The translations under genes and the position numbers were made by a program. Source: a virus. From it: a stretch of DNA of 40,173 nucleotides. Positions 1 to 34,698 of this stretch are shown here, one piece after another. Below the pieces are notes generated by a model. The model saw only the letters and a program-made list of their open reading frames with translations, made no database searches and had not been told where the DNA came from. The DNA is taken from IMG/VR virus record IMGVR_UViG_3300030419_000291, positions 1-40,173 of that record. One strand, given 5' to 3'. Numbering within the stretch: position 1 is the stretch's first letter; each line of letters opens with the position of its first letter.

Positions 1-39
1 GTGTAGATTTATCAAAACAAGGGTTAATATTTACATAAA

Positions 40-333
40 ATGGCACACGAGAATAGAAAAGCAGCTTTGTTAAAGAAGCATGGGTTAAGTGGAGTCAATA
101 AAGCAAAACGTACACCTAATCATAAAACAAAGTCGCACATAGTCCTTGCACAAAAAGGGCATAAGATAAAGCTAATAAGATTTGGTCAACAAGGTGTGAA
201 AGGTGCAGGTAAGAATCCTAAGACTGCAAAAGATAAAGCACGTAAGAAATCTTATTATGCTAGACACTCAGCACAAGACCCTAGTCCAGATATTTTTTCT
301 GCTAGGTATTGGGCTCACAAAGTAAAATGGTGA
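40..333 (+). CDS. Small basic conserved phage protein
   Basis: 97-residue, Lys/Arg-rich protein with no membrane segment or signal peptide. The C-terminal third carries an aromatic and basic signature (KKSYYARH, then SARYWAHKVKW at the end). From memory this resembles the ARH...ARYW..W ending of small marine phage proteins, but I cannot name a function. It is the first gene of a tight plus-strand series; the next gene starts 7 bases after its stop. The 39 bases before it contain only the end of something upstream and a weak AAGGG element. The high positive charge suggests nucleic acid binding, which is inference. Confidence 0.75.
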   Translation: MAHENRKAALLKKHGLSGVNKAKRTPNHKTKSHIVLAQKGHKIKLIRFGQQGVKGAGKNPKTAKDKARKKSYYARHSAQDPSPDIFSARYWAHKVKW

Positions 334-340
334 TTTAAAA

Positions 341-982
341 ATGGTTAAAAATAGTAAAACTTCTGCTCAAATGGGTAGAGAAAATAGACAAAAGATTATC
401 AACGCACTTAAAAAAATATTTCGTTTTGATAAAAATATAACAAAAGCGTTAAAGGATAGTCCAAAAGAAACAGTTAAAAAGTTAGCAGATGGAACATTTG
501 ATAAAGGGGTGAGTACAAAACAAAAAACTAATAGAGTAATTAATGACATAGTAAGTAAAGATAAAAAAGAAATGCCTATAAAGGACCAACTTTCAAGTAT
601 ATTTTCTACAAGTAGAAACCCAAATGTTGCAAAGGACTTGACACCAATAGCAAAAAAACCTAAAGTAAAATCTTCAATGACACAAAAAGAAGCTGCTAGA
701 AAAAGAAAAAGCCTTTTACAAACAAGCAGAAAAACTCCTAATGTAAGTATAACGATTGCTTCTATAGGTATTCCAAAAAGTAGACCCGAAAAACCAAAAT
801 CTAAAAAACTAGAAAAGAAAAAAACCCCAACTAAAAAAACACAAACGCTAGTGTATTTAAAATCAGGCAAAAAAGGAACAATCGCACAACGATTGGCAGA
901 GTTAGATAAAGAGAAAGCATTAGAAAAAGTAAAAAAATTAGCACAAGCATCTCTTAAAAAGAAAAAAACGAGGAAGGCATAA
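341..982 (+). CDS. Lysine-rich hypothetical protein
   Basis: 213 residues, extremely rich in lysine, with low-complexity Lys/Pro/Thr/Ser stretches in the second half (for example KKKTPTKKTQT near residues 154-164) and a C-terminus of charged helix ending in KKKKTRKA. No recognised domain. The composition resembles the 346-residue protein at 6121-7161, which also has KTPTK-type repeats. Its stop overlaps the next start by one base (TAATG), so the two are probably translationally coupled. A long hydrophobic open frame on the opposite strand is the complement of AAA codons and is not a gene. Function unknown; DNA or RNA binding is inferred only from charge. Confidence 0.7.
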   Translation: MVKNSKTSAQMGRENRQKIINALKKIFRFDKNITKALKDSPKETVKKLADGTFDKGVSTKQKTNRVINDIVSKDKKEMPIKDQLSSIFSTSRNPNVAKDLTPIAKKPKVKSSMTQKEAARKRKSLLQTSRKTPNVSITIASIGIPKSRPEKPKSKKLEKKKTPTKKTQTLVYLKSGKKGTIAQRLAELDKEKALEKVKKLAQASLKKKKTRKA

Positions 983-1290
983 TGGCAAAAGTAGAAGAAG
1001 GTGAAATTGTTAATACAGTAGAAGAAGCAAAAACTGTTTTAAGAAATCCTGATAAATATAGTGTACAACAAGTAAAAGATGCAAAAAACCTTATGGATAG
1101 GTTTGCTACACTTAACCAAGAATCCAATAGAACAAAAATGGCTGATGGTGGCATGGCAAGTGGAAAGAAACATATGTATTTAAACGCAGGAGCTGCCGTA
1201 GTGGATAATTTACCAAATAAAGGTACAAGAGCATTAGCTAAAACAGCGAAAGGCAGAGAAGCATTAAAAAATATGGGGTTACTTAAATAA
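982..1290 (+). CDS. Hypothetical protein with GGM motif
   Basis: 102 residues. The first half is a charged, probably helical segment. The second half begins with the motif KMADGGMASGKK (about residues 52-63), followed by a more conserved-looking region ending KGREALKNMGLLK. The GGM/GGL-A-K motif recurs in other proteins of this window (the 50-residue peptide at 2348, and the proteins at 11280 and 23277). The start shares a base with the previous stop; GAGGAAGG lies just upstream as a Shine-Dalgarno sequence. I do not recognise a family with a known role. Confidence 0.7.
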   Translation: MAKVEEGEIVNTVEEAKTVLRNPDKYSVQQVKDAKNLMDRFATLNQESNRTKMADGGMASGKKHMYLNAGAAVVDNLPNKGTRALAKTAKGREALKNMGLLK

Positions 1291-1545
1291 GTGACATATA
1301 AAAGAAACTATCAAAAAGAGTATGCGAATGAAACACCTGCACGTAGACAAAAACGTGTAAACAGAAACTTTGCTAGAAAACAAGCTATGAAGCAAGGACT
1401 TGTAAGAAAAGGTGATGGAAAAGATGTACACCATGTAGGAGGTAACGCATTAAATAGAAATAGTAAACTTAAAGTTGTTCCTGCATCTGTAAATAGGTCA
1501 TTTAGTAGAACAAAAACTGCTAGAAAAAGATTTGCGTTTTCATAA
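1291..1545 (+). CDS. Small basic protein with HNH-like core
   Basis: 84 residues with a GTG start directly abutting the previous stop. Residues 46-70 contain an HNH-like core: VHH at 46-48, then GN, N55, S58, L-x-V-V and N68-R-S. This spacing matches the His-His...Asn...Asn pattern of small HNH nucleases such as the HNH_3 type. The flanks are very rich in Arg and Lys. The usual second zinc-binding Cys pairs are absent, and the domain is shorter than a typical HNH endonuclease of about 100-150 residues. It could be a minimal HNH nuclease or a DNA-binding derivative. Its place upstream of the lysis and packaging genes fits the HNH proteins often found near phage terminases. Confidence 0.65.
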   Translation: MTYKRNYQKEYANETPARRQKRVNRNFARKQAMKQGLVRKGDGKDVHHVGGNALNRNSKLKVVPASVNRSFSRTKTARKRFAFS

Positions 1546-1847
1546 TGAGAAGAGTACCTAGAAAAAAAGGACAACCAAGAAAGTCTAAAAAGCATAGCGA
1601 CCTTTATACAGATGAAGACCCAAAAGGCACAATACATGGATTAAAGTTTGCTACAGTAAAAGATGCTAAAGAATCCGTAGCAAAAATAAAAAGGTCAAAT
1701 AGAACACACGCACATAAAACACAAGCTGCGATTGCAATGGAACAACGAGCAAAAGCTGCAGGTAAACTTAAAGCAGCAGCAGTGTATAGAGCATTTATAG
1801 AAGAACAGAAAAAGAAAACAAAGAAACGTGCATCCAATAGAAGTTGA
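1545..1847 (+). CDS. Small basic conserved phage protein
   Basis: 100 residues beginning with a Lys/Arg-rich tail, then the block HSDLYTDEDPKGTIHGLKF (about residues 18-36) and a helical segment with AHKTQAAIAMEQRAKAAGK. I recall this HSDLYTDE-PKGTIHGL plus AHK-QAAIAM-QRA combination as a recurrent small protein of marine phages and other viruses, without a known function. The start overlaps the previous stop by one base (TAATG). The compact domain with conserved His and acidic residues is unlike the low-complexity neighbours, so it probably has a defined fold. Confidence 0.75.
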   Translation: MRRVPRKKGQPRKSKKHSDLYTDEDPKGTIHGLKFATVKDAKESVAKIKRSNRTHAHKTQAAIAMEQRAKAAGKLKAAAVYRAFIEEQKKKTKKRASNRS

Positions 1848-2442
1848 TATTAGAAATTGGTCTAAAAACTTTTTAGAAATACCAAGTGATAAATTAAATG
1901 GATTACCTCCTTGTCCTTATGCAAAAGATGCTTGGTTAAAAAATAAAGTAAAGTTTGATATTAACACTGGGTTTGAAGGTTTAACAAAACAAATTAAAGA
2001 GTTTGATAATCACAAGTATGATATTGTAATATGGGCTTGTGATGAAGATATACCTGAAATGCAATATCTTGACGGATATTGTGACGGAATCAATGAGGTT
2101 TTGTCTGTACTAGGCAAAGATATGCACTTGATGGTATTTCATCCTGACTTTGACGCTATTACTGCAGGGTTAGAGTTTTTGGATGATGGTGGCATAACTA
2201 ACCAAGAGTTAGAGTATGCAATGGTGTTTGTGCAGAGATTATCCACACTTGATGATGCTGCACTTAGTTTGGAAAAGTCTGGATATTATCAGTATTTTCC
2301 AAAATGGATATATCAAAGTCTAGTAGTAGATAGAAGGAGATTAAGAAATGCCGGGTCACAACAAGAAAGCAAAAATGGCAAAGAAAATGCGTGGAGGAGG
2401 AATGATGAAACCCAAAAGAATGATGGGTGGTGGTATGGCTAA
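1828..2442 (+). CDS. CPYA-motif conserved protein (DUF1415-like)
   Basis: 204 residues from a GTG start that overlaps the previous gene by 20 bases. Visible features are LPPCPYAKDAW (about residues 26-36), an acidic core with WACDEDIPEMQ, and LMVFHPDFDA near residue 112. The CPYA...FHPDF combination weakly resembles the LCPFA...FHPDY pattern of DUF1415 proteins, so a related fold is possible. It is the one acidic, globular-looking protein in this cluster. The last 30 or so residues are low-complexity and overlap a different open frame (2348-2500) that looks more gene-like, so selection on this tail may be weak. Function unknown. Confidence 0.7.
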   Translation: MHPIEVDIRNWSKNFLEIPSDKLNGLPPCPYAKDAWLKNKVKFDINTGFEGLTKQIKEFDNHKYDIVIWACDEDIPEMQYLDGYCDGINEVLSVLGKDMHLMVFHPDFDAITAGLEFLDDGGITNQELEYAMVFVQRLSTLDDAALSLEKSGYYQYFPKWIYQSLVVDRRRLRNAGSQQESKNGKENAWRRNDETQKNDGWWYG

Positions 2443-2500
2443 AATGGCTAAAAAGAAAAAGATGATGCGTATGGGTGGTATGGCTAAAAAGAAAAGATAG
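2348..2500 (+). CDS. Met/Gly/Lys-rich 50-residue peptide, overlapping gene
   Basis: 50 residues reading ATG at 2348 to TAG at 2500, in a different frame from the 204-residue gene whose last 95 bases it shares. By direct translation it has 13 Met, 15 Lys, 4 Arg and 9 Gly, and no acidic residue. The pattern is repeated GGGM, GGGMAKMAKKKK and GGMAKKKR. The same GGM-A-K motif appears in other proteins here. It resembles the Met/Gly/Lys-rich C-terminal tail of the SRP protein Ffh, but low complexity makes that weak. The stop overlaps the next GTG start by one base. The ordered run of starts and stops supports a real gene. Confidence 0.6.
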   Translation: MPGHNKKAKMAKKMRGGGMMKPKRMMGGGMAKMAKKKKMMRMGGMAKKKR

Positions 2501-2610
2501 TGCCGAAACTTGTTCGTTCAACATATATTCCCAAGAAGCGTATTCGCAGACCGGGAAGACATAAAAAGAAGGTTAATAAACGTGATAAAGTTAAAACACA
2601 TTGGGCATAA
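2500..2610 (+). CDS. 36-residue very basic protein
   Basis: GTG start at 2500 shares one base with the TAG of the preceding peptide (TAGTG). The product contains VRSTYIPKKRIRRPGRHKKK followed by VNKRDKVKTHWA. I recall the pattern STY-PK--I-RPGRHKK as a recurring very small protein in marine phages. It is almost entirely Lys, Arg and His plus a short conserved aromatic segment, suggesting nucleic acid binding or a virion peptide (inference). It is shorter than most gene finders report. A longer open frame across the same bases (from 2510) is likely only real from the GTG at 2582. Confidence 0.6.
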   Translation: MPKLVRSTYIPKKRIRRPGRHKKKVNKRDKVKTHWA

Positions 2611-2731
2611 GCTATCAAGAAAGTTTATTTATTATCTTGGATTAACCTTCTTGTATATGGGAAAACCTTTTTCAAAAATAGGTAATTGGTTTTGGAGAAA
2701 GCACAGAGATATACTTGACACATTAGACTAA
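2582..2731 (+). CDS. 49-residue hypothetical protein with hydrophobic segment
   Basis: The open frame runs from 2510, but the best start is GTG at 2582, because the gene at 2500-2610 occupies the upstream part and AAGAAGG lies 9-10 bases before this GTG. The product is MIKLKHIGHKLSRKF, then a short hydrophobic aromatic stretch (IYYLGLTFLYMG), then GNWFWRKHRDILDTLD. The hydrophobic segment is short for a transmembrane helix; the protein may bind a membrane surface. It overlaps the previous gene by 29 bases and the next gene starts 17 bases later behind a GGAG site. I do not recognise a family. Confidence 0.45.
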   Translation: MIKLKHIGHKLSRKFIYYLGLTFLYMGKPFSKIGNWFWRKHRDILDTLD

Positions 2732-2748
2732 CGGAGATAATATATAAA

Positions 2749-3234
2749 ATGGTAGTCGCAGAAGTTTTGACAGGAATAGCTTTAGTAAAACAGGCTACCG
2801 ACTTTATCAAACAGAATATAGAAACTGCAAGAGATATAGGCGATATTGCAGGAGAAATAGATAACTTGATAAAGGGAGAGTCCGAAGCACAAAAAGCAAG
2901 ATTTAAAAAATCAGGAGGGTTTTCTAATTTTGATACAGAATCTGTAGCACAAGAAATCATAGACGCTAAGCTAGCTGCCGAGAAGCTCAGAGAGGTGGCT
3001 GTAATGGTGGACCTCAGATTTGGAAGTGGAACGTGGGCTGGTATTTTGGCAGAACGAAAGAAAAGAATAGAAGAACAAAAAAGAATACTTGCCGAAGAGA
3101 AAAAACAACGAGCAATAGAAAGACAAGAGAACATAGATTTTTTTAAGATGATAGGTGGAGTAATAGGATTAGTATTAATTGTTTTAAGTTTAGTTGCCGT
3201 TATGATATTAGTAATGTCTAAACCTGCATTATGA
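2749..3234 (+). CDS. Coiled-coil protein with C-terminal membrane anchor
   Basis: 161 residues. The N-terminal 40 residues are an amphipathic helix with AEVLTGIALVKQATDFIK. Residues 98-128 form a strongly charged coiled coil (ERKKRIEEQKRILAEEKK). Residues 133-156 are one transmembrane helix, with a short SKPAL tail. There is no signal peptide, so it is likely a tail-anchored cytoplasmic protein. ACGGAGATAA provides the ribosome binding site. I recall similar proteins near lysis genes of marine phages but no assigned role. An inner-membrane virion or lysis accessory role is possible; a spanin is less likely because the anchor is C-terminal. Confidence 0.7.
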   Translation: MVVAEVLTGIALVKQATDFIKQNIETARDIGDIAGEIDNLIKGESEAQKARFKKSGGFSNFDTESVAQEIIDAKLAAEKLREVAVMVDLRFGSGTWAGILAERKKRIEEQKRILAEEKKQRAIERQENIDFFKMIGGVIGLVLIVLSLVAVMILVMSKPAL

Positions 3235-3380
3235 TAGAAAAAATAGCAACATACTTTTTACATTTTTGTACTATTATTGTAACATTATATCTTATATATG
3301 CAATAGGAATGGCAACATTAAATACAATATGTGATTGTGCAAGAGATTATAATAATTGGTGGGAGTTTAAATGGCTTTAA
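3231..3380 (+). CDS. 49-residue single-span membrane protein
   Basis: ATG at 3231 overlaps the previous stop as ATGA, and the gene ends 10 bases inside the next one. The product has one hydrophobic span (TYFLHFCTIIVTLYLIYAIG, residues 7-26), then NTICDCARDY with two Cys, and ends NNWWEFKWL. GTGGGAG inside its 3' end provides the ribosome binding site of the following gene. The ATGA coupling to another membrane protein and the tight packing make it a credible gene despite its size. It could be a lysis accessory protein; nothing in the sequence assigns a function. Confidence 0.6.
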   Translation: MIEKIATYFLHFCTIIVTLYLIYAIGMATLNTICDCARDYNNWWEFKWL

Positions 3381-3610
3381 AAAGTCCTCAAATAAGTTTA
3401 AAAAAATGGTCAAACCAAAAATGGAGAACCAAGTCAGGTAAACCTTCTGCTAAAACAGGAGAAAGATATTTACCTGAAAAAGCTATCAAAGCATTAAGTC
3501 CTGCAGAGTATGCTGCAACAACAAAAGCAAAACGAGAGGGTACAAAAAAGGGTAAACAATTTGTAAAACAACCTAAAAGTATTGCAAAGAAAGTAAGGAG
3601 ATTTAGATAA
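3371..3610 (+). CDS. Basic protein with TGERYLP block (half of a DUF5872-like pair)
   Basis: 79 residues, basic. Contains KKWSNQKWRTKSGKPSAKTG then ERYLPEKAIKALSPAEY, followed by TTKAKREGTKKGKQFVKQPK. I recall this block as the C-terminal part of a small protein in many viruses (DUF5872-like), where it follows a GGKPGQWSARKAQ block in one chain. Here the QWSARKAQ block is a separate gene, placed after this one (3610-3894). The stop overlaps the next start by one base (TAATG), so the two halves are probably made together. Function unknown. Its start lies inside the end of the preceding small membrane protein gene. Confidence 0.75.
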   Translation: MALKSPQISLKKWSNQKWRTKSGKPSAKTGERYLPEKAIKALSPAEYAATTKAKREGTKKGKQFVKQPKSIAKKVRRFR

Positions 3611-3894
3611 TGGCAACAATAAAAGCAAAAAGAACAATTAAAAAAGTTGCAGGTAAATTAAAAAAAGCTAGTAAGGCACACGCAGGTCAAGCAAAAGCAT
3701 TATCTAGTTTAAAGTTAAATAGAGGTGGTAGCACAGTAAATAAAGCAGGTAACTATACAAAACCTACTATGCGTAAAAATTTATTTAATAGAATTAAAGC
3801 AGGTGGTAAAGGTGGTAATCCGGGTCAATGGTCTGCTAGAAAAGCACAGATGTTAGCACAACAATATAAAGCAAAAGGTGGAGGATATAGATAA
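3610..3894 (+). CDS. Basic protein with QWSARKAQ block (partner half)
   Basis: 94 residues. The N-terminal 45 residues are a lysine-rich tail. The C-terminal half holds NYTKPTMRKNLFNRIKAGGK, then GGNPGQWSARKAQMLAQQYK, ending GGGYR. In related proteins, as I remember them, this block precedes the W...TKSGKPS...ERYLP block within one protein; here the blocks are in separate, coupled genes in reversed order. The chain ends just after GGGY, the point where the fused version would continue. The GGTGGAGG at its 3' end also serves as ribosome binding site for the LysM gene. Function unknown. Confidence 0.75.
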   Translation: MATIKAKRTIKKVAGKLKKASKAHAGQAKALSSLKLNRGGSTVNKAGNYTKPTMRKNLFNRIKAGGKGGNPGQWSARKAQMLAQQYKAKGGGYR

Positions 3895-3895
3895 A

Positions 3896-4342
3896 ATGAA
3901 AAAGGGAAGAAATACACAAAAAACAAAACTAAAAGATGATGAAAAGGCAAAAAGAAAATCACCATCAACATCTCAAAGCACAGGAGCTTTTTTTAGTGAC
4001 CTTATTAAAGCAATTAAGGGTGGAGGTGCAAGTAAATTAACAAAAAATTATAAAGTAAAAAAAGGAGATACTGCTAGTGATATTGCTAAAAAAGCAGGAA
4101 TAACTTTACTACAACTTAAAAAATTAAACCCTAAATTAAAAACAGGTCAAGGTGGAACACCTCCTAAAGGAACAGTTGCACAAAAAACAATGCAAGTTGG
4201 TTCTATTATTAAACTACCTGACCCACAAAGTTTTAAAAATTTTAGGTTACAAGATATAAAAAGAAAAAAACCTGTGTATAAAGGTGTTACAAAAACACAA
4301 TTTGAAGAGATGAATGTTCCTATAAAAAAGAAAAAGAAATGA
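3896..4342 (+). CDS. LysM-domain protein of the lysis cassette
   Basis: 148 residues from ATG 3896; an ATG at 3878 is in frame but lies inside the previous gene's end, and GGAGG fits 3896 better. Residues 1-50 are a Lys-rich tail. A LysM fold follows from about 51: NYKVKKGDTASDIAKKAGIT then LLQLKKLNPKLKTG, and after a Gly/Pro/Thr-rich insertion VGSIIKLP at 101-108. LysM domains bind GlcNAc of peptidoglycan. There is no signal peptide or membrane span, and the C-terminus is again lysine-rich. Its place directly before holin and lysozyme genes suggests a cell-wall role, perhaps as a virion or lysis accessory protein. The gene ends ATGA into the holin gene. Confidence 0.8.
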   Translation: MKKGRNTQKTKLKDDEKAKRKSPSTSQSTGAFFSDLIKAIKGGGASKLTKNYKVKKGDTASDIAKKAGITLLQLKKLNPKLKTGQGGTPPKGTVAQKTMQVGSIIKLPDPQSFKNFRLQDIKRKKPVYKGVTKTQFEEMNVPIKKKKK

Positions 4343-4722
4343 TACAAGCATTAATAGGTCCTATATCTAGTTTAGCGTCAACATGGTTGGAGGGTAAAGT
4401 TGAAAAAGGTAAAGCAAAAGTTAAAGCAGATGTGGCAAAAGCTGAAGCAGAAGCTATCGTTATGCAAAAGAAAGCTACAGGAGAAATTGACTGGGATTTG
4501 GAAATGGCTAAAGGTTCTCATAACTCGTGGAAAGACGAATGGTTAGTTGTACTTTTTTCAATACCTTTAATTTTAGCCTTCATTCCGGGTATGGAAGGAA
4601 TTGTACAAAATGGATTTGAACAGTTGGAAAAAATGCCAGAATGGTATCAATACAGTCTTGGGGTCATTGTTGCTGCTTCCTTTGGGGTTCGCAGTGCTAC
4701 TAAGTTCTTTGGTAAAAAATAA
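4339..4722 (+). CDS. Holin, 3TM GTA-type family
   Basis: 127 residues. The N-terminal 60 residues are a charged, Ala/Lys-rich amphipathic helix. Then SWKDEW (63-68) leads into one transmembrane helix (about 68-85), the linker EQLEKMPEWYQY, and a second helix at about 104-121, ending in FFGKK. The SWKDEW-x-FSIPL...FIPG...PEWYQY arrangement matches the 'holin of 3TMs, gene-transfer release' family (PF11351) as I know it. Holins make inner membrane lesions that let the lysozyme reach the wall. Start ATG overlaps the LysM stop as ATGA; the stop overlaps the next ATG (TAATG). The lysozyme gene follows two genes on. Confidence 0.8.
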   Translation: MIQALIGPISSLASTWLEGKVEKGKAKVKADVAKAEAEAIVMQKKATGEIDWDLEMAKGSHNSWKDEWLVVLFSIPLILAFIPGMEGIVQNGFEQLEKMPEWYQYSLGVIVAASFGVRSATKFFGKK

Positions 4723-4943
4723 TGGCAGAAGAAACTTCGGACTTAATACCAGACAAAGCAACGTATCAAAAGAACAGAAGGTACATGGCATGGGCTGCAC
4801 TTGTAATGATGATGGTAGCGACTGTGGCTGTGATTGTGAGTCCAGAGAGGTTTGCAAGTGCCGAAGCAATCCTAATGATGATGTATGGTAGTTTGTCTGC
4901 ATTAGTTGCAGCATACTTTGGGTTTAGTGGAAAGAAAAAATGA
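4722..4943 (+). CDS. Two-span holin-like membrane protein
   Basis: 73 residues with a soluble N-terminus (KATYQKNRRYMAW), two hydrophobic helices (about 22-40 and 48-68), and a basic KKK end. Placed between a 3TM-family holin and the lysozyme, with one-base overlaps on both sides. A small, two-span, basic-tailed protein in this position is a good candidate for a second holin, antiholin or pinholin. I recall similar 'NRRYM-WAAL' proteins in marine phages and gene-transfer-agent-like clusters without confirmed function. A cysteine-rich reading of the same DNA in another frame is a shadow. Confidence 0.7.
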   Translation: MAEETSDLIPDKATYQKNRRYMAWAALVMMMVATVAVIVSPERFASAEAILMMMYGSLSALVAAYFGFSGKKK

Positions 4944-5449
4944 AGTATAGTAGAAAACAATTTATAGAAAAATTAATTGAACATGAGGGATGCGTTCTAA
5001 CTGTATATCAAGATAGTTTAGGAATAGACACTATTGGTATCGGTAGAAATTTACAAGATAGAGGAATATCTCCTGAAGAACTTGCACAGATGGAAACATC
5101 TATAGAGGATATTCACGACAAAGGTATTACAGAAGCAGATGCAATATATCTTGCAGAGAATGACGTACAGATTGTTGAAGATGAACTTTCTAAAGCACAT
5201 CCTTGTGTGGAAAGGTTAGATGCTGTACGTCAGCTTATACTGATGGATATGGCTTACAACATGGGTGTACCAAGATTATGTAAGTTTAAAAATATGTGGA
5301 GGAATATTCACAAAGCAGTAGAAGCTGATATTAAAAAAGAAAAGTTTTTTCGTGCTGCATCACTAGAGATGTTAGACAGCAAATGGGCAAGACAAGTAAA
5401 AAGCAGAGCAAAGAAAATGGCAATCGCTATGCGAAGTGGAGAGTTTTAA
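4940..5449 (+). CDS. Endolysin, T4-type lysozyme (glycoside hydrolase 24)
   Basis: 169 residues. The N-terminus LIEHEGCVLTVYQDSLG then IDTIGIGRNL aligns with the T4 lysozyme active site. The catalytic triad Glu11-Asp20-Thr26 of T4 corresponds to Glu16-Asp25-Thr31 here. VRQLILMDMAYNMGVPRL (about residues 94-111) is the second conserved block of the fold, and SKWARQVKSRAKKMA near the end matches the C-terminal W-x-x-Q...R conserved helix. It cleaves the MurNAc-GlcNAc bond of peptidoglycan. No signal peptide or signal-anchor is visible, so it depends on the adjacent holins for export. ATGA overlap with the upstream holin-like gene. Length is close to T4 lysozyme's 164. Confidence 0.95.
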   Translation: MKYSRKQFIEKLIEHEGCVLTVYQDSLGIDTIGIGRNLQDRGISPEELAQMETSIEDIHDKGITEADAIYLAENDVQIVEDELSKAHPCVERLDAVRQLILMDMAYNMGVPRLCKFKNMWRNIHKAVEADIKKEKFFRAASLEMLDSKWARQVKSRAKKMAIAMRSGEF

Positions 5450-5450
5450 T

Positions 5451-5612
5451 ATGACTGAACCTAAAAAATTAACAGTAGAAGAAGCAAGAAAAAAGGGAAT
5501 AATATTGAAGAAGAAAAAAATTAAAGAAAATAATACTGTATATTTTAAAACAGGTACACCTCCTAAAAAGAATAAAACTGGATTCTTTGATTTTTTTACA
5601 GTATTTAGGTAG
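5451..5612 (+). CDS. 53-residue basic hypothetical protein
   Basis: ATG at 5451, one base after the lysozyme stop. The product MTEPKKLTVEEARKKGIILK continues with a lysine run, then TVYFKTGTPPKKNKTG and a Phe-rich end (FFDFFTVFR). It fills the gap between lysozyme and the small terminase exactly, leaving 8 bases to the next ATG. No recognised family. The C-terminal FFDFF is too short for a membrane helix but could insert into a membrane or a protein groove. Accepted mainly on position and on the absence of any competing frame. Confidence 0.5.
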   Translation: MTEPKKLTVEEARKKGIILKKKKIKENNTVYFKTGTPPKKNKTGFFDFFTVFR

Positions 5613-11151: not shown

Positions 11152-11296
11152 CTATATAGATATTTTAATATCACAACAACAAGTAGCATTAGAACAATCT
11201 GATAATGTTATTCTTATGCATAGGTCGCAAGGTTCAATTACAACACTTAGACGATTAAAACAAATAAGGGATATTGTAAATGACAAAACCAAATGA
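11114..11296 (+). CDS. Small conserved protein following the portal
   Basis: 60 residues from ATG 11114, which lies in the Gln-rich end of the portal gene in another frame. The open frame extends upstream to 11057 but the first 19 residues are a low-complexity shadow of the portal tail. The product is MLNNPLQWEAFNNYIDILIS, then QQQVALEQS, then LMHRSQGSITTLRRLKQIRD. I recall this L-NP--WEAF--Y-D...HRSQG----LR-LK--RD pattern as a small protein encoded directly after portal genes of marine podoviruses. It is a helical hairpin by eye and could be a portal-associated or packaging protein. Its 3' end overlaps the next gene by 17 bases. Confidence 0.7.
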   Translation: MLNNPLQWEAFNNYIDILISQQQVALEQSDNVILMHRSQGSITTLRRLKQIRDIVNDKTK

Positions 11297-13046
11297 ACAA
11301 ATGGAGATGTTTGAAATTAAAAAAGATGAAGCATCAAAAAAATTAGATAAAGGTGTTTCTGATTTAAAAAAAGAACGTAAATTTACATTTGATAAAATGA
11401 CAAAAATGTTAGAGTCTGGCGAAGTTAAAAATTTATCACAAGAAGATAAACAAAAATTTGTTGAACTATATAAACTATTAAAACAACATCATGGATTTCA
11501 AGAAGGTGGACTTGAACAAGATGGGGGTACACAAGACCCTGTATCAGGTAATGAAGTACCTACAGGTTCATCACAAGCAGAAGTAAGAGATGATATTCCA
11601 GCAATGTTAAGTGAAGGTGAATTTGTATTTCCAGCAGATGTTGTACGTTTTATAGGTTTAGAAAAACTTATGCAAATTAGACAAGAAGCAAAAGCAGGAC
11701 TTAAACGTATGGAAGATATGGGTCAAATGGGTAATAGTAGTGAAGCTACAATACCTGATGATGTTCCATTTACTGTAGATGATTTAGAAGTTGAGGATGC
11801 ACCAAAAGAAATGTTTGTTGGTGGATTATTACCTCCACTTACAACTATGCCCGTATCACAACAACAACAACAAGTTACTCCTATGCCACCATATGGATTA
11901 TTACCTCCTAATGAAAATAGGTTAAATTTAAATCCAAATCAACTTGGTGGACTTTTTGGATTTCAACCACAACAAGCACAAACACCTGTTACACCAACAG
12001 CAGCACCTGCATATAATGTACAAGGTCAACAAACAAATCAATTATATAATGTTCCAACATTTACACCACAACAAGCTGTAGGAACTTTTGAAACTTTAAC
12101 AGGTGATAAGCCCGGAGAATTTGGACAACCTGACGTTATTAAAACATATGTAAATGAAGATGGTATGGAACTTAGAATACCATTTAAAGGAGGTAGTCCA
12201 ATTTATGATGTACCACCGGGTTACACAGAAAAGAAAGAAGAGAAAACACAAGAAGCTATTAAACCAAAAGATACAGCAGTAAAAACAACACAAGTTACAG
12301 GTACAAGACAAGATGAAGGGGAGTCAATAAGACAACAACAACCTATAGATGCTAAAATATCTGAACAAAAAGATAGATTTAATATTACATCATCAAGAGG
12401 TTTTGATGTTTTAAATCTGCTTCCGGGTGCTGGAATAGCTAAATTTTTTAAAGATGTAGTAGGGGTTCAACCTACAGGAAAAGGTATTGTAGGTGCATTA
12501 ACTCCTAAACAAACAGAAGAGAAAAAAACTTTTAATGAGTATGTAGATACTTTAACTGGTGATAAAAAACGAAGGCATGACAGGTATGAAAGTCTTTTAC
12601 GTACTCCAATTACAGGATTTGTAGGAAATAAAAAAGGAGATTTAGACCCTGCAACAGGTGGAGTTTTTGATAGGAAAGGTATTGCTAGAAATGAGGATGG
12701 TTCAGATGCAACAAATGAATTTGGTACTCGTTCTTATGCATCCTTTGCAGATTTTAAAGAAGATAGAGCAGCAGGTAAACAATCAGGTTGGCAAGGTGGT
12801 GCTATTAGTAAATCAAGTTATGATAAATTAAGTGATACAGGAAAAGCTAATTATGATAAATATTCTGAAATAAGAGGTCTTGATACAGGTCCTGAAGACG
12901 AAACATCTCAGGTAGAATCTGATGCACAGGGTTTTGCTGAAAATCCTCAAGATGATGCTGATGCATTTGCTTTTAATAAAGGTGGACTTGCATCTAAGTC
13001 TAAACCTAAAAAGATGAAGCGTGGTGGGTTAGCTTCTAAAAAATAA
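11280..13046 (+). CDS. Virion-associated protein between portal and scaffold
   Basis: 588 residues. The N-terminal 60 are a charged helix. Then come QEGGLEQDGGTQDPVSGNEV and the highly conserved-looking block AEVRDDIPAMLSEGEFVFPA with DVVRFIGLEKLMQIRQEAK and MEDMGQMGN (about residues 99-155), which I recall from many marine podoviruses. The middle is Gln/Pro/Thr-rich and probably disordered. The C-terminus has NKGGLASKSKPKKMKRGGLA followed by SKK, two copies of the GGLASK motif. Function not known to me; position suggests a capsid or connector-associated protein. AAGGGAT precedes the start. The 67-base gap after it holds an inverted repeat. Confidence 0.75.
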   Translation: MTKPNEQMEMFEIKKDEASKKLDKGVSDLKKERKFTFDKMTKMLESGEVKNLSQEDKQKFVELYKLLKQHHGFQEGGLEQDGGTQDPVSGNEVPTGSSQAEVRDDIPAMLSEGEFVFPADVVRFIGLEKLMQIRQEAKAGLKRMEDMGQMGNSSEATIPDDVPFTVDDLEVEDAPKEMFVGGLLPPLTTMPVSQQQQQVTPMPPYGLLPPNENRLNLNPNQLGGLFGFQPQQAQTPVTPTAAPAYNVQGQQTNQLYNVPTFTPQQAVGTFETLTGDKPGEFGQPDVIKTYVNEDGMELRIPFKGGSPIYDVPPGYTEKKEEKTQEAIKPKDTAVKTTQVTGTRQDEGESIRQQQPIDAKISEQKDRFNITSSRGFDVLNLLPGAGIAKFFKDVVGVQPTGKGIVGALTPKQTEEKKTFNEYVDTLTGDKKRRHDRYESLLRTPITGFVGNKKGDLDPATGGVFDRKGIARNEDGSDATNEFGTRSYASFADFKEDRAAGKQSGWQGGAISKSSYDKLSDTGKANYDKYSEIRGLDTGPEDETSQVESDAQGFAENPQDDADAFAFNKGGLASKSKPKKMKRGGLASKK

Positions 13047-32760: not shown

Positions 32761-34698
32761 TTAAGTTAAATCAACGACTTCACAAGAGTCTGCTGTACAA
32801 GCTAGTTCTCTACCACCTGTGGTAGTATCTTCTCTTTCAAACTCTTGTAGCTTTGACCAATCTATATTCTTTGGCATCTTATCCATCCATTCATTATATT
32901 CTTTTTCTGTAATGTCTTGATAAGGTGCTTGCTTATAAGAGTGGTCGCTATGTGGTAAGAAACTAATGCCTGATACTTCATCAAAATGTTTATATACCCA
33001 AGCACCAACTTCCATCCATTCTTCTTCTCTAACTGTTATTGTAACAGAGGGTTTATGTTCACACCAATATCTTTGATACATCAACCATGTTTCTAATTGC
33101 CATAAAGCAGACTTATCATTTCGCTTGATAGCATTAGGTGGTGATTTCATTGGAAAACTAAACACCATAACACTTTGAGGTTTCATTACATCAGGTTCAC
33201 TAGGTATGCCTTGCTCTATCATAAACTGTGTTAGTGGGTCTTTTACATCACCTCTAACAGTTCTAATGTAATAATCATTATGTCTAGCATGAATACCACT
33301 AGCACTATCTACAAGCTGTGATACTGTGCCACTAGGTTTAACACAAGTAATAGCAGTAGATTGTGGTATTTCTAATTGCTTAGCATAAACAGCATTTGTT
33401 GTTACAGCAGTTTCTTTTAAGTTTTCTAACACACATTTTAATATATGATTATCTATACTACCATTCTTAGGAACAAGTGTAGGGCAATCTAATATACCTG
33501 TTAAAGATACTCCTAACAATCTTTCTTCTTCTGTATTATCTTTCCATATCTTTCTAATATATTTAAAGTCTGTAAGTGTAGATTGAAATGTACCTAATAT
33601 TGTAGCAAGTTCTACTTTTTCTTGTAAAGTTTCTAATGTATCATTCTCTCTTGCAACAACTTCAGATAGATTACAGAATTGATAAGGTCTTAGTATAATC
33701 TCACTACAAGGATTACAACCAAATGCAAACTCTGTATCTCTTCTACCATTCTTTTTTGCTTGTTTAACAGCAGACTTGCGATTAAAGATACCCCTTTCTC
33801 CTGACTTACTTTCTACAAGAGCCAACCATTCTCGCATAAATGTTTCCATTTGTACTTTACCTTTATAGGCAACAGAGTTATTTGCTAATGCTCGTTGTCC
33901 TTCTGTTTCCCACCAAGAACCTGACTTAGCGTGTCGCATTTGGTCATCACCAAGATTAGATAAACTAATCAGTGCTGACCTTCTAACCCCACCTACAACA
34001 ACAACTTCACCAATCTTACACATAATATCATGGCACTCTATTGGATATAATCTTCTACCTGCAGCATTTTTAAATATATCTACACAAAAAGTATATAAGT
34101 TAGCTAATGGTTCAGGACCTGATGCTCTACCACCAAACGTCTTCAACCTTGCACCTGCAGGTCTTACCCCCCAAGTATCAAATTGAGGTATCTGTCCTGC
34201 ATATAACATAGCAATTAACTCTCGTAAAGATTTAGCCCAACCGGGTCTGCTATCTCCTACCTTAATTACTGTATCAGATTCATGGAAGTCTTCATTAATG
34301 ATAGGTAGCTTGTCTACATTTTCTCGTTCTACAGAAAACCCTACACCTGTACCACACATTAATATATACATACACTCATCAAAGGCTCTAGGGCTATCTA
34401 CGGGTATATATGAACAGTTATATCCTGCAACATGACATCTATCTAAAGCAGGTCCTGATGTCATCAATGCTCGCATACTTGGCATAATCTGTTGTGAATG
34501 TATTGCATCATATAATCTACTTTTTAATTCTGCAGGTATTGTATAATCGTAGTTATTCTCTAAATGATTACTCATATAATCCATATATCTTGTTACAGTT
34601 TCTCCCCAAGATTCTCTTCTTTGTTCATCATCTTTCCATCTAGCATACCTAGATAATGCTATGAAGTTTTGGTAATCTGTTGGTAGTGCATTATTCAT
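32761..34698 (-). CDS. nrdJ: Ribonucleotide reductase, class II (B12-dependent, monomeric)
   Basis: 645 residues. Catalytic loop FGCNPCSEI: Asn329, Cys331 (thiyl radical) and Glu333 correspond to Asn406, Cys408 and Glu410 of the Lactobacillus leichmannii enzyme. Cys342 in QFCNLSEV matches Cys419, and Cys95 in AGYNCSYIPV the other active-site thiol. The C-terminal CTADSC is the redox-relay pair. CGTGVGFSVERENVDKLP is the substrate and cofactor region. It reduces ribonucleoside triphosphates using adenosylcobalamin, so the host must supply B12. It is shorter than the 739-residue bacterial enzyme, as in other marine phages. A strong CAAGGAGATTAAAT site precedes it. It supplies dNTPs for replication. 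Confidence 0.95.
   Translation of the reverse strand: MNNALPTDYQNFIALSRYARWKDDEQRRESWGETVTRYMDYMSNHLENNYDYTIPAELKSRLYDAIHSQQIMPSMRALMTSGPALDRCHVAGYNCSYIPVDSPRAFDECMYILMCGTGVGFSVERENVDKLPIINEDFHESDTVIKVGDSRPGWAKSLRELIAMLYAGQIPQFDTWGVRPAGARLKTFGGRASGPEPLANLYTFCVDIFKNAAGRRLYPIECHDIMCKIGEVVVVGGVRRSALISLSNLGDDQMRHAKSGSWWETEGQRALANNSVAYKGKVQMETFMREWLALVESKSGERGIFNRKSAVKQAKKNGRRDTEFAFGCNPCSEIILRPYQFCNLSEVVARENDTLETLQEKVELATILGTFQSTLTDFKYIRKIWKDNTEEERLLGVSLTGILDCPTLVPKNGSIDNHILKCVLENLKETAVTTNAVYAKQLEIPQSTAITCVKPSGTVSQLVDSASGIHARHNDYYIRTVRGDVKDPLTQFMIEQGIPSEPDVMKPQSVMVFSFPMKSPPNAIKRNDKSALWQLETWLMYQRYWCEHKPSVTITVREEEWMEVGAWVYKHFDEVSGISFLPHSDHSYKQAPYQDITEKEYNEWMDKMPKNIDWSKLQEFEREDTTTGGRELACTADSCEVVDLT

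Follow-up and report, generated by a model that had tools for sequence, protein, structure and literature searches.

The window, that is, the whole stretch of viral DNA analyzed here (40,173 bases, a virus record of the HMO-2011 type), encodes at 2348-2500 a Met/Gly/Lys-repeat peptide of 50 residues, which is almost certainly the product of a genuine protein-coding gene. In the relatives of this virus the gene is obligately paired with an acidic partner gene directly upstream, and in many of them it is followed at once by a gene for a SET-domain methyltransferase. By analogy with known systems, our best explanation, which we offer as plausible but tentative, is that it might be a histone-tail-like, nucleic acid-binding late peptide that has an acidic partner and is lysine-methylated in part of the family. 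The features concerned are as follows:

1828..2352, plus strand: conserved part (residues 1-175) of the acidic partner gene, phrog_28122, directly upstream of the peptide gene
2332..2340, plus strand: Shine-Dalgarno AGAAGGAGA of the peptide gene, situated within the upstream gene at its conserved DRRRLRN codons; same motif and same spacing in relatives
2348..2500, plus strand: Met/Gly/Lys-repeat peptide gene, 50 aa; conserved ORF, dN/dS 0.12, position kept in 346/346 testable loci among the matches listed
2353..2442, plus strand: residues 176-204 and the stop of the partner frame, a derived extension by read-through that overlaps the peptide gene; around this point the frame ends in other lineages
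2500..2610, plus strand: following small gene for a basic product of 36 aa (RRPGRHKKKVNKRDK), its start overlapping the peptide stop by 1 nt
4940-5449: endolysin gene, about 2.4 kb downstream of the peptide gene

The proteins of the window match those of Puniceispirillum phage HMO-2011 and the Roseobacter CRP phages, and the portal proteins of eight relatives that share the peptide/partner gene pair are 72-82% identical to that of the window. HMO-2011-type phages are a dominant and widely spread marine phage group (PMC9038755). The peptide gene lies among small, mostly basic genes, with the endolysin, terminase, portal and capsid genes downstream. The same block includes further small basic conserved phage genes at 3610-3894 and 40-333 (phrog_17747 and phrog_7595), and on the minus strand at 32761-34698 there is a 645-residue protein that by eye resembles ribonucleotide reductase. 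A promoter and terminator scan of positions 1-5600 of the window gave sites no more numerous than in shuffled sequence.

The coordinates and composition given for the peptide in an earlier note proved exact: it contains 13 Met, 15 Lys, 4 Arg and 9 Gly and neither Asp nor Glu, with a predicted pI of 12 and a net charge of about +19 (+18.6 computed). That note had also held the gene to be real, and several lines of evidence bear this out. In its own frame dN/dS is 0.12 over 39 same-length pairs (0.124 over 19 disjoint pairs), and the comparison between frames that had been suggested gave values of about 2.5 and 1.5 for the shifted frames. In nearly all relatives, too, the ATG follows a strong Shine-Dalgarno motif of the same type. 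The peptide ORF is the single ORF of the window with at least 40 residues of which at least 75% are K, R, M or G, and no such ORF arose in 100 simulated windows of matched dinucleotide make-up. Homologues occupy the same position even in relatives with just 44-70% identity in the upstream gene, HMO-2011 and CRP-345 among them. In CRP-345 the homologue is gp77, and in HMO-2011 (NC_021864) it is an unannotated gene for a 50-residue peptide between gp66 and gp65, at 50628-50780 on the minus strand (L033 3518-3670). A peptide frame broken in relatives beside an intact 204-residue frame had been named as the pattern that would speak against a gene; the opposite is seen, the peptide frame being kept everywhere.

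The first 95 bases of the gene (2348-2442) are indeed shared, in another frame, with the 3' end of the 204-residue ORF at 1828-2442, and its stop TAG (2498-2500) overlaps the GTG (2500-2502) of the 36-residue ORF. The description of the peptide as encoded across the end of another gene thus stands as regards the overlap but not as regards its direction. Conservation of the partner runs to the motif RRRLRN, about residue 174, after which the frames of the relatives end, the upstream stop falling 1-32 nt past the peptide start for 196 of the 212 distinct pairs. The partner stop was lost in the window and its close relatives, where the frame continues for 29 codons; therefore the tail (residues 176-204), and not the peptide, is the newcomer. 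In the window clade, substitutions in the overlap leave the peptide sequence unchanged or exchange Lys and Arg in it, whereas the same substitutions alter amino acids in the tail frame (e.g. K to E); the peptide is thus the older gene and the tail a by-product. Separate stop losses are seen in a few other lineages (overlaps of 53-143 nt). This comparison of sequences indicates that the long overlap arose by loss of the upstream stop codon, not by overprinting by the small gene, and the case illustrates a trap into which the reading of overlapping genes can fall.

The viral contigs used come from metagenomes, and locus counts are samples drawn from among the matches listed. On this footing, the partner immediately precedes the peptide in all 135 loci with enough upstream DNA that were sampled by a peptide motif pattern (a set that also contains a few loci first obtained via the partner), and in 79 of 81 loci found with a second peptide pattern, the two exceptions being of a different protein family. 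In turn, the peptide is in place in each of the 346 loci that contain the partner and sufficient DNA, a set that mixes partner-, peptide- and SET-sampled loci and with which the purely partner-sampled set agrees. Both genes are present in HMO-2011 and CRP-345, and they are jointly absent from seven other HMO-2011-type isolates, where the search for the peptide covered about 50 kb of each genome of 53-56 kb (about 89% or more) and that for the partner whole records. The pairing of peptide and partner is obligate, and the only partner homologues without the peptide are very distant ones, namely those of S-SSM7 (28%) and CRP-810 (32%). In CRP-810 the gene of the distant homologue (L035 1935-3043) runs into a 2OG-Fe(II) oxygenase gene, with which it overlaps, and a SAM methyltransferase gene is close by.

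The conserved part of the partner has a pI of 4.7 and a net charge of about -11 (-10.9 computed). The protein belongs to phrog_28122 (E 1e-64) and is weakly similar to DUF6875/DUF1415, the DUF6875 score of the window protein being 12.1 bits, below the curated cut-off of 24.5; we know of no function for any of these three families. Its structure is predicted well (pLDDT 86), and a Foldseek search with the model gave no PDB match at E <= 0.001, matching only uncharacterised phage proteins. Four residues, Cys29, Asp86, His100 and His105, are invariant and could form an active site. Together with the strict adjacency in all testable loci, the opposite charges of the two products and the conservation of the partner while the repeat number of the peptide varies, such a site would suit a peptide that is the substrate or ligand of the partner, in a RiPP-like or client-chaperone relationship from which nucleic acid is absent. 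However, the enzyme family of the partner is unrecognised beyond the weak DUF6875/DUF1415 likeness and no solved fold matches, and the peptide has no leader/core layout, extra domains being found on either side of the repeats; we regard this reading as unlikely. The lack of a matching solved fold is also a point against our own best explanation.

In many relatives a SET methyltransferase gene occupies the slot that the 36-residue ORF fills in the window: among the matches listed, a SET-domain gene comes next after the peptide in 71 of 143 motif-sampled loci, and an ORF of the 36-residue type in 15 of the 143. The SET proteins are compact (roughly 116-143 residues), match the Pfam SET family above cut-off (E 1e-13 to 3e-18), and have invariant NHS..PN and C-terminal YG motifs. 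In loci sampled via the SET gene the peptide is directly upstream in 77 of 77 testable cases, with a gap of -1 or 0; these loci were taken from the best 80 of 308 matches, a rule that favours near relatives, and they come from related phages, so that the adjacency in part reflects shared inheritance. The presence of the SET gene changes at least 15 times on the partner tree, an approximate figure, since the tree was built quickly and many of its branches are weak. Among eight long HMO-type records, five have a single copy of the gene and three lack it over the whole record, and it was not found in the 40-kb window (possibly an incomplete genome), in HMO-2011 or in the stretch of CRP-345 that was searched. 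As the window and HMO-2011 lack it, the peptide should have a role without methylation. We infer from these gene arrangements that SET genes of this type depend on the peptide rather than the reverse, as would be expected of an enzyme that acts on the peptide or through it. Shared inheritance and exchange of the slot by recombination can also yield the pattern, and the enzyme could instead have host proteins or other phage proteins as its targets. Next to SET genes the K/(K+R) ratio of the peptides is just slightly raised, in a comparison that ignores kinship. The main text of a survey of HMO-2011-type phages mentions neither a SET domain nor a methyltransferase.

The peptide is built of GGGM and AKMAKKKK repeats, and Lys makes up 31% of the residues in 80 family members. 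The AF2 model of the window peptide is helical at low confidence (pTM 0.28) with no globular fold predicted, and the hydrophobic moment does not exceed that of shuffles in four family members. The peptide thus shows the traits sought in a chromatin tail, being lysine-rich and nearly free of acidic residues and lacking a globular fold. The absence of acidic residues and of any globular or amphipathic signal, along with variable repeats, fits a flexible nucleic acid-binding polycation.

Repeat number varies among relatives, free-standing peptides being mostly of 44-75 residues, and in some variants the repeats are joined to differing small N- or C-terminal domains. These extra domains (L011 2719-3111, L018 369-926, L100 and L142) belong to no known family, family searches having given nothing above chance. 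The constancy of repeats joined to different domains on either side might point to a basic tail by which proteins are incorporated into the virion or tethered there, as a head assembly or cargo tag. In the same vein, a 588-residue head-region protein of the window (11280-13046, with a DDIPAMLSEGEFV motif) ends in KKMKRGGLASKK, like the peptide C-terminus, and the Pelagibacter phage HTVC115P has a similar peptide between its portal and the following head gene. However, most copies of the peptide are free-standing, and the likenesses to the window protein and to HTVC115P are short low-complexity motifs, which makes a virion tag quite unlikely. The HTVC115P peptide (gp73, L155 2951-3088), of 45 residues, MPQGPGTYGSKKGRPPKKKMMGGGMMMKKKKMMHGGAIHKGKKKK, contains the shared motif and an AT-hook-like GRPPKKK; the partner gene was not found there.

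A strongly cationic peptide of mostly 44-75 residues encoded some 2.4 kb ahead of the endolysin gene could also be a disruptin-like lysis peptide that disrupts the outer membrane. We consider this improbable: the amphipathic moment is not above shuffles, whereas a disruptin is an amphipathic cationic helix, CRP-345 carries an annotated spanin gene as well as the peptide, and the adjacency of SET genes is left unexplained. Mimicry of the Ffh M domain in binding signal peptides or SRP RNA, which the earlier note had raised from a Met-, Gly- and Lys-rich low-complexity stretch shared with the tail of that domain (a short visual match to RMMKKMKKGGMAKMMRSMKGMM of E. coli Ffh) while cautioning that low complexity weakened the resemblance, can hardly be credited, as the alignment score lies within the range that composition alone produces (p = 0.08 against composition-matched shuffles for the window peptide, 0.24-0.43 for three relatives), profile searches of Pfam, NCBIfam and PDB returned no Ffh/SRP match and no homology was detected, and the 50 residues of repeats contain nothing like RIAAGCGMQVQDVNRLL of the helix-turn-helix that binds 4.5S RNA and are too short for such an element.

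Scans of Pfam, PHROG and NCBIfam and phmmer/hmmsearch against PDB placed the peptide in no credible family, a match to the type III secretion protein YscE (E 0.25) being judged due to chance. Searches with tblastn/blastn against phage records gave almost no matches because low-complexity filters mask the peptide, and homologues were instead sought by back-translated DNA patterns; the motif pattern had no matches in 84,980 cellular genomes. The open-access literature, when searched, yielded no relevant work on virion proteomics or on Met/Lys-rich peptides of marine phages.

For the methylation of nucleic acid-binding proteins by SET enzymes, precedents are known from archaea, from Chlamydia and from chloroviruses. 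In the archaeon Methanosarcina, the DNA-binding protein MC1-alpha is methylated by Go1-SET (PMC3980110), and a chlamydial SET protein interacts with the histone H1-like Hc1/Hc2 (PMC3089700). As is proposed for the phages, a small basic protein is the target or an interaction partner of a SET-domain lysine methyltransferase in these systems. No sequence kinship with them was found, and the phage-borne peptide differs in its Met/Gly-rich repeats, in the adjacent and overlapping peptide and SET genes of the relatives, and in a window copy that has no SET gene. The closest solved structure to the SET proteins of the relatives is PBCV-1 vSET (E 5.6e-18, full length), likewise a compact single-domain viral SET protein with NHS..PN and YG..YW motifs. 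vSET is a viral H3K27 methyltransferase acting on the histones of an algal host, whereas the hosts here are bacterial and the SET gene adjoins that of a lysine-rich phage peptide.

Under the histone-tail-like explanation, the peptide of these marine tailed phages would be an intrinsically disordered polycation resembling a histone tail or histone H1, made right after the acidic partner, probably coupled to its translation, and presumably late in expression. It may bind and neutralise nucleic acid, either phage DNA in condensation and packaging or host nucleic acid, with the partner as a putative dedicated protein that binds, holds or processes the peptide, and the downstream SET methyltransferase probably methylates the lysines of the peptide in roughly half of the relatives sampled.

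A conserved peptide of a dominant marine phage group thus has no entry in Pfam, PHROGs or NCBIfam, and even the HMO-2011 reference leaves it without annotation. The SET gene beside it in many relatives offers a concrete idea, the lysine methylation of a phage-made nucleic acid-binding peptide. The fuller proposal, in which the peptide, the acidic partner and a vSET-like enzyme that methylates the peptide form a mini chromatin-tail system, is conceivable but on balance rather doubtful. If true, marine phages would own a chromatin-tail system that tunes the binding of phage DNA or host nucleic acid.
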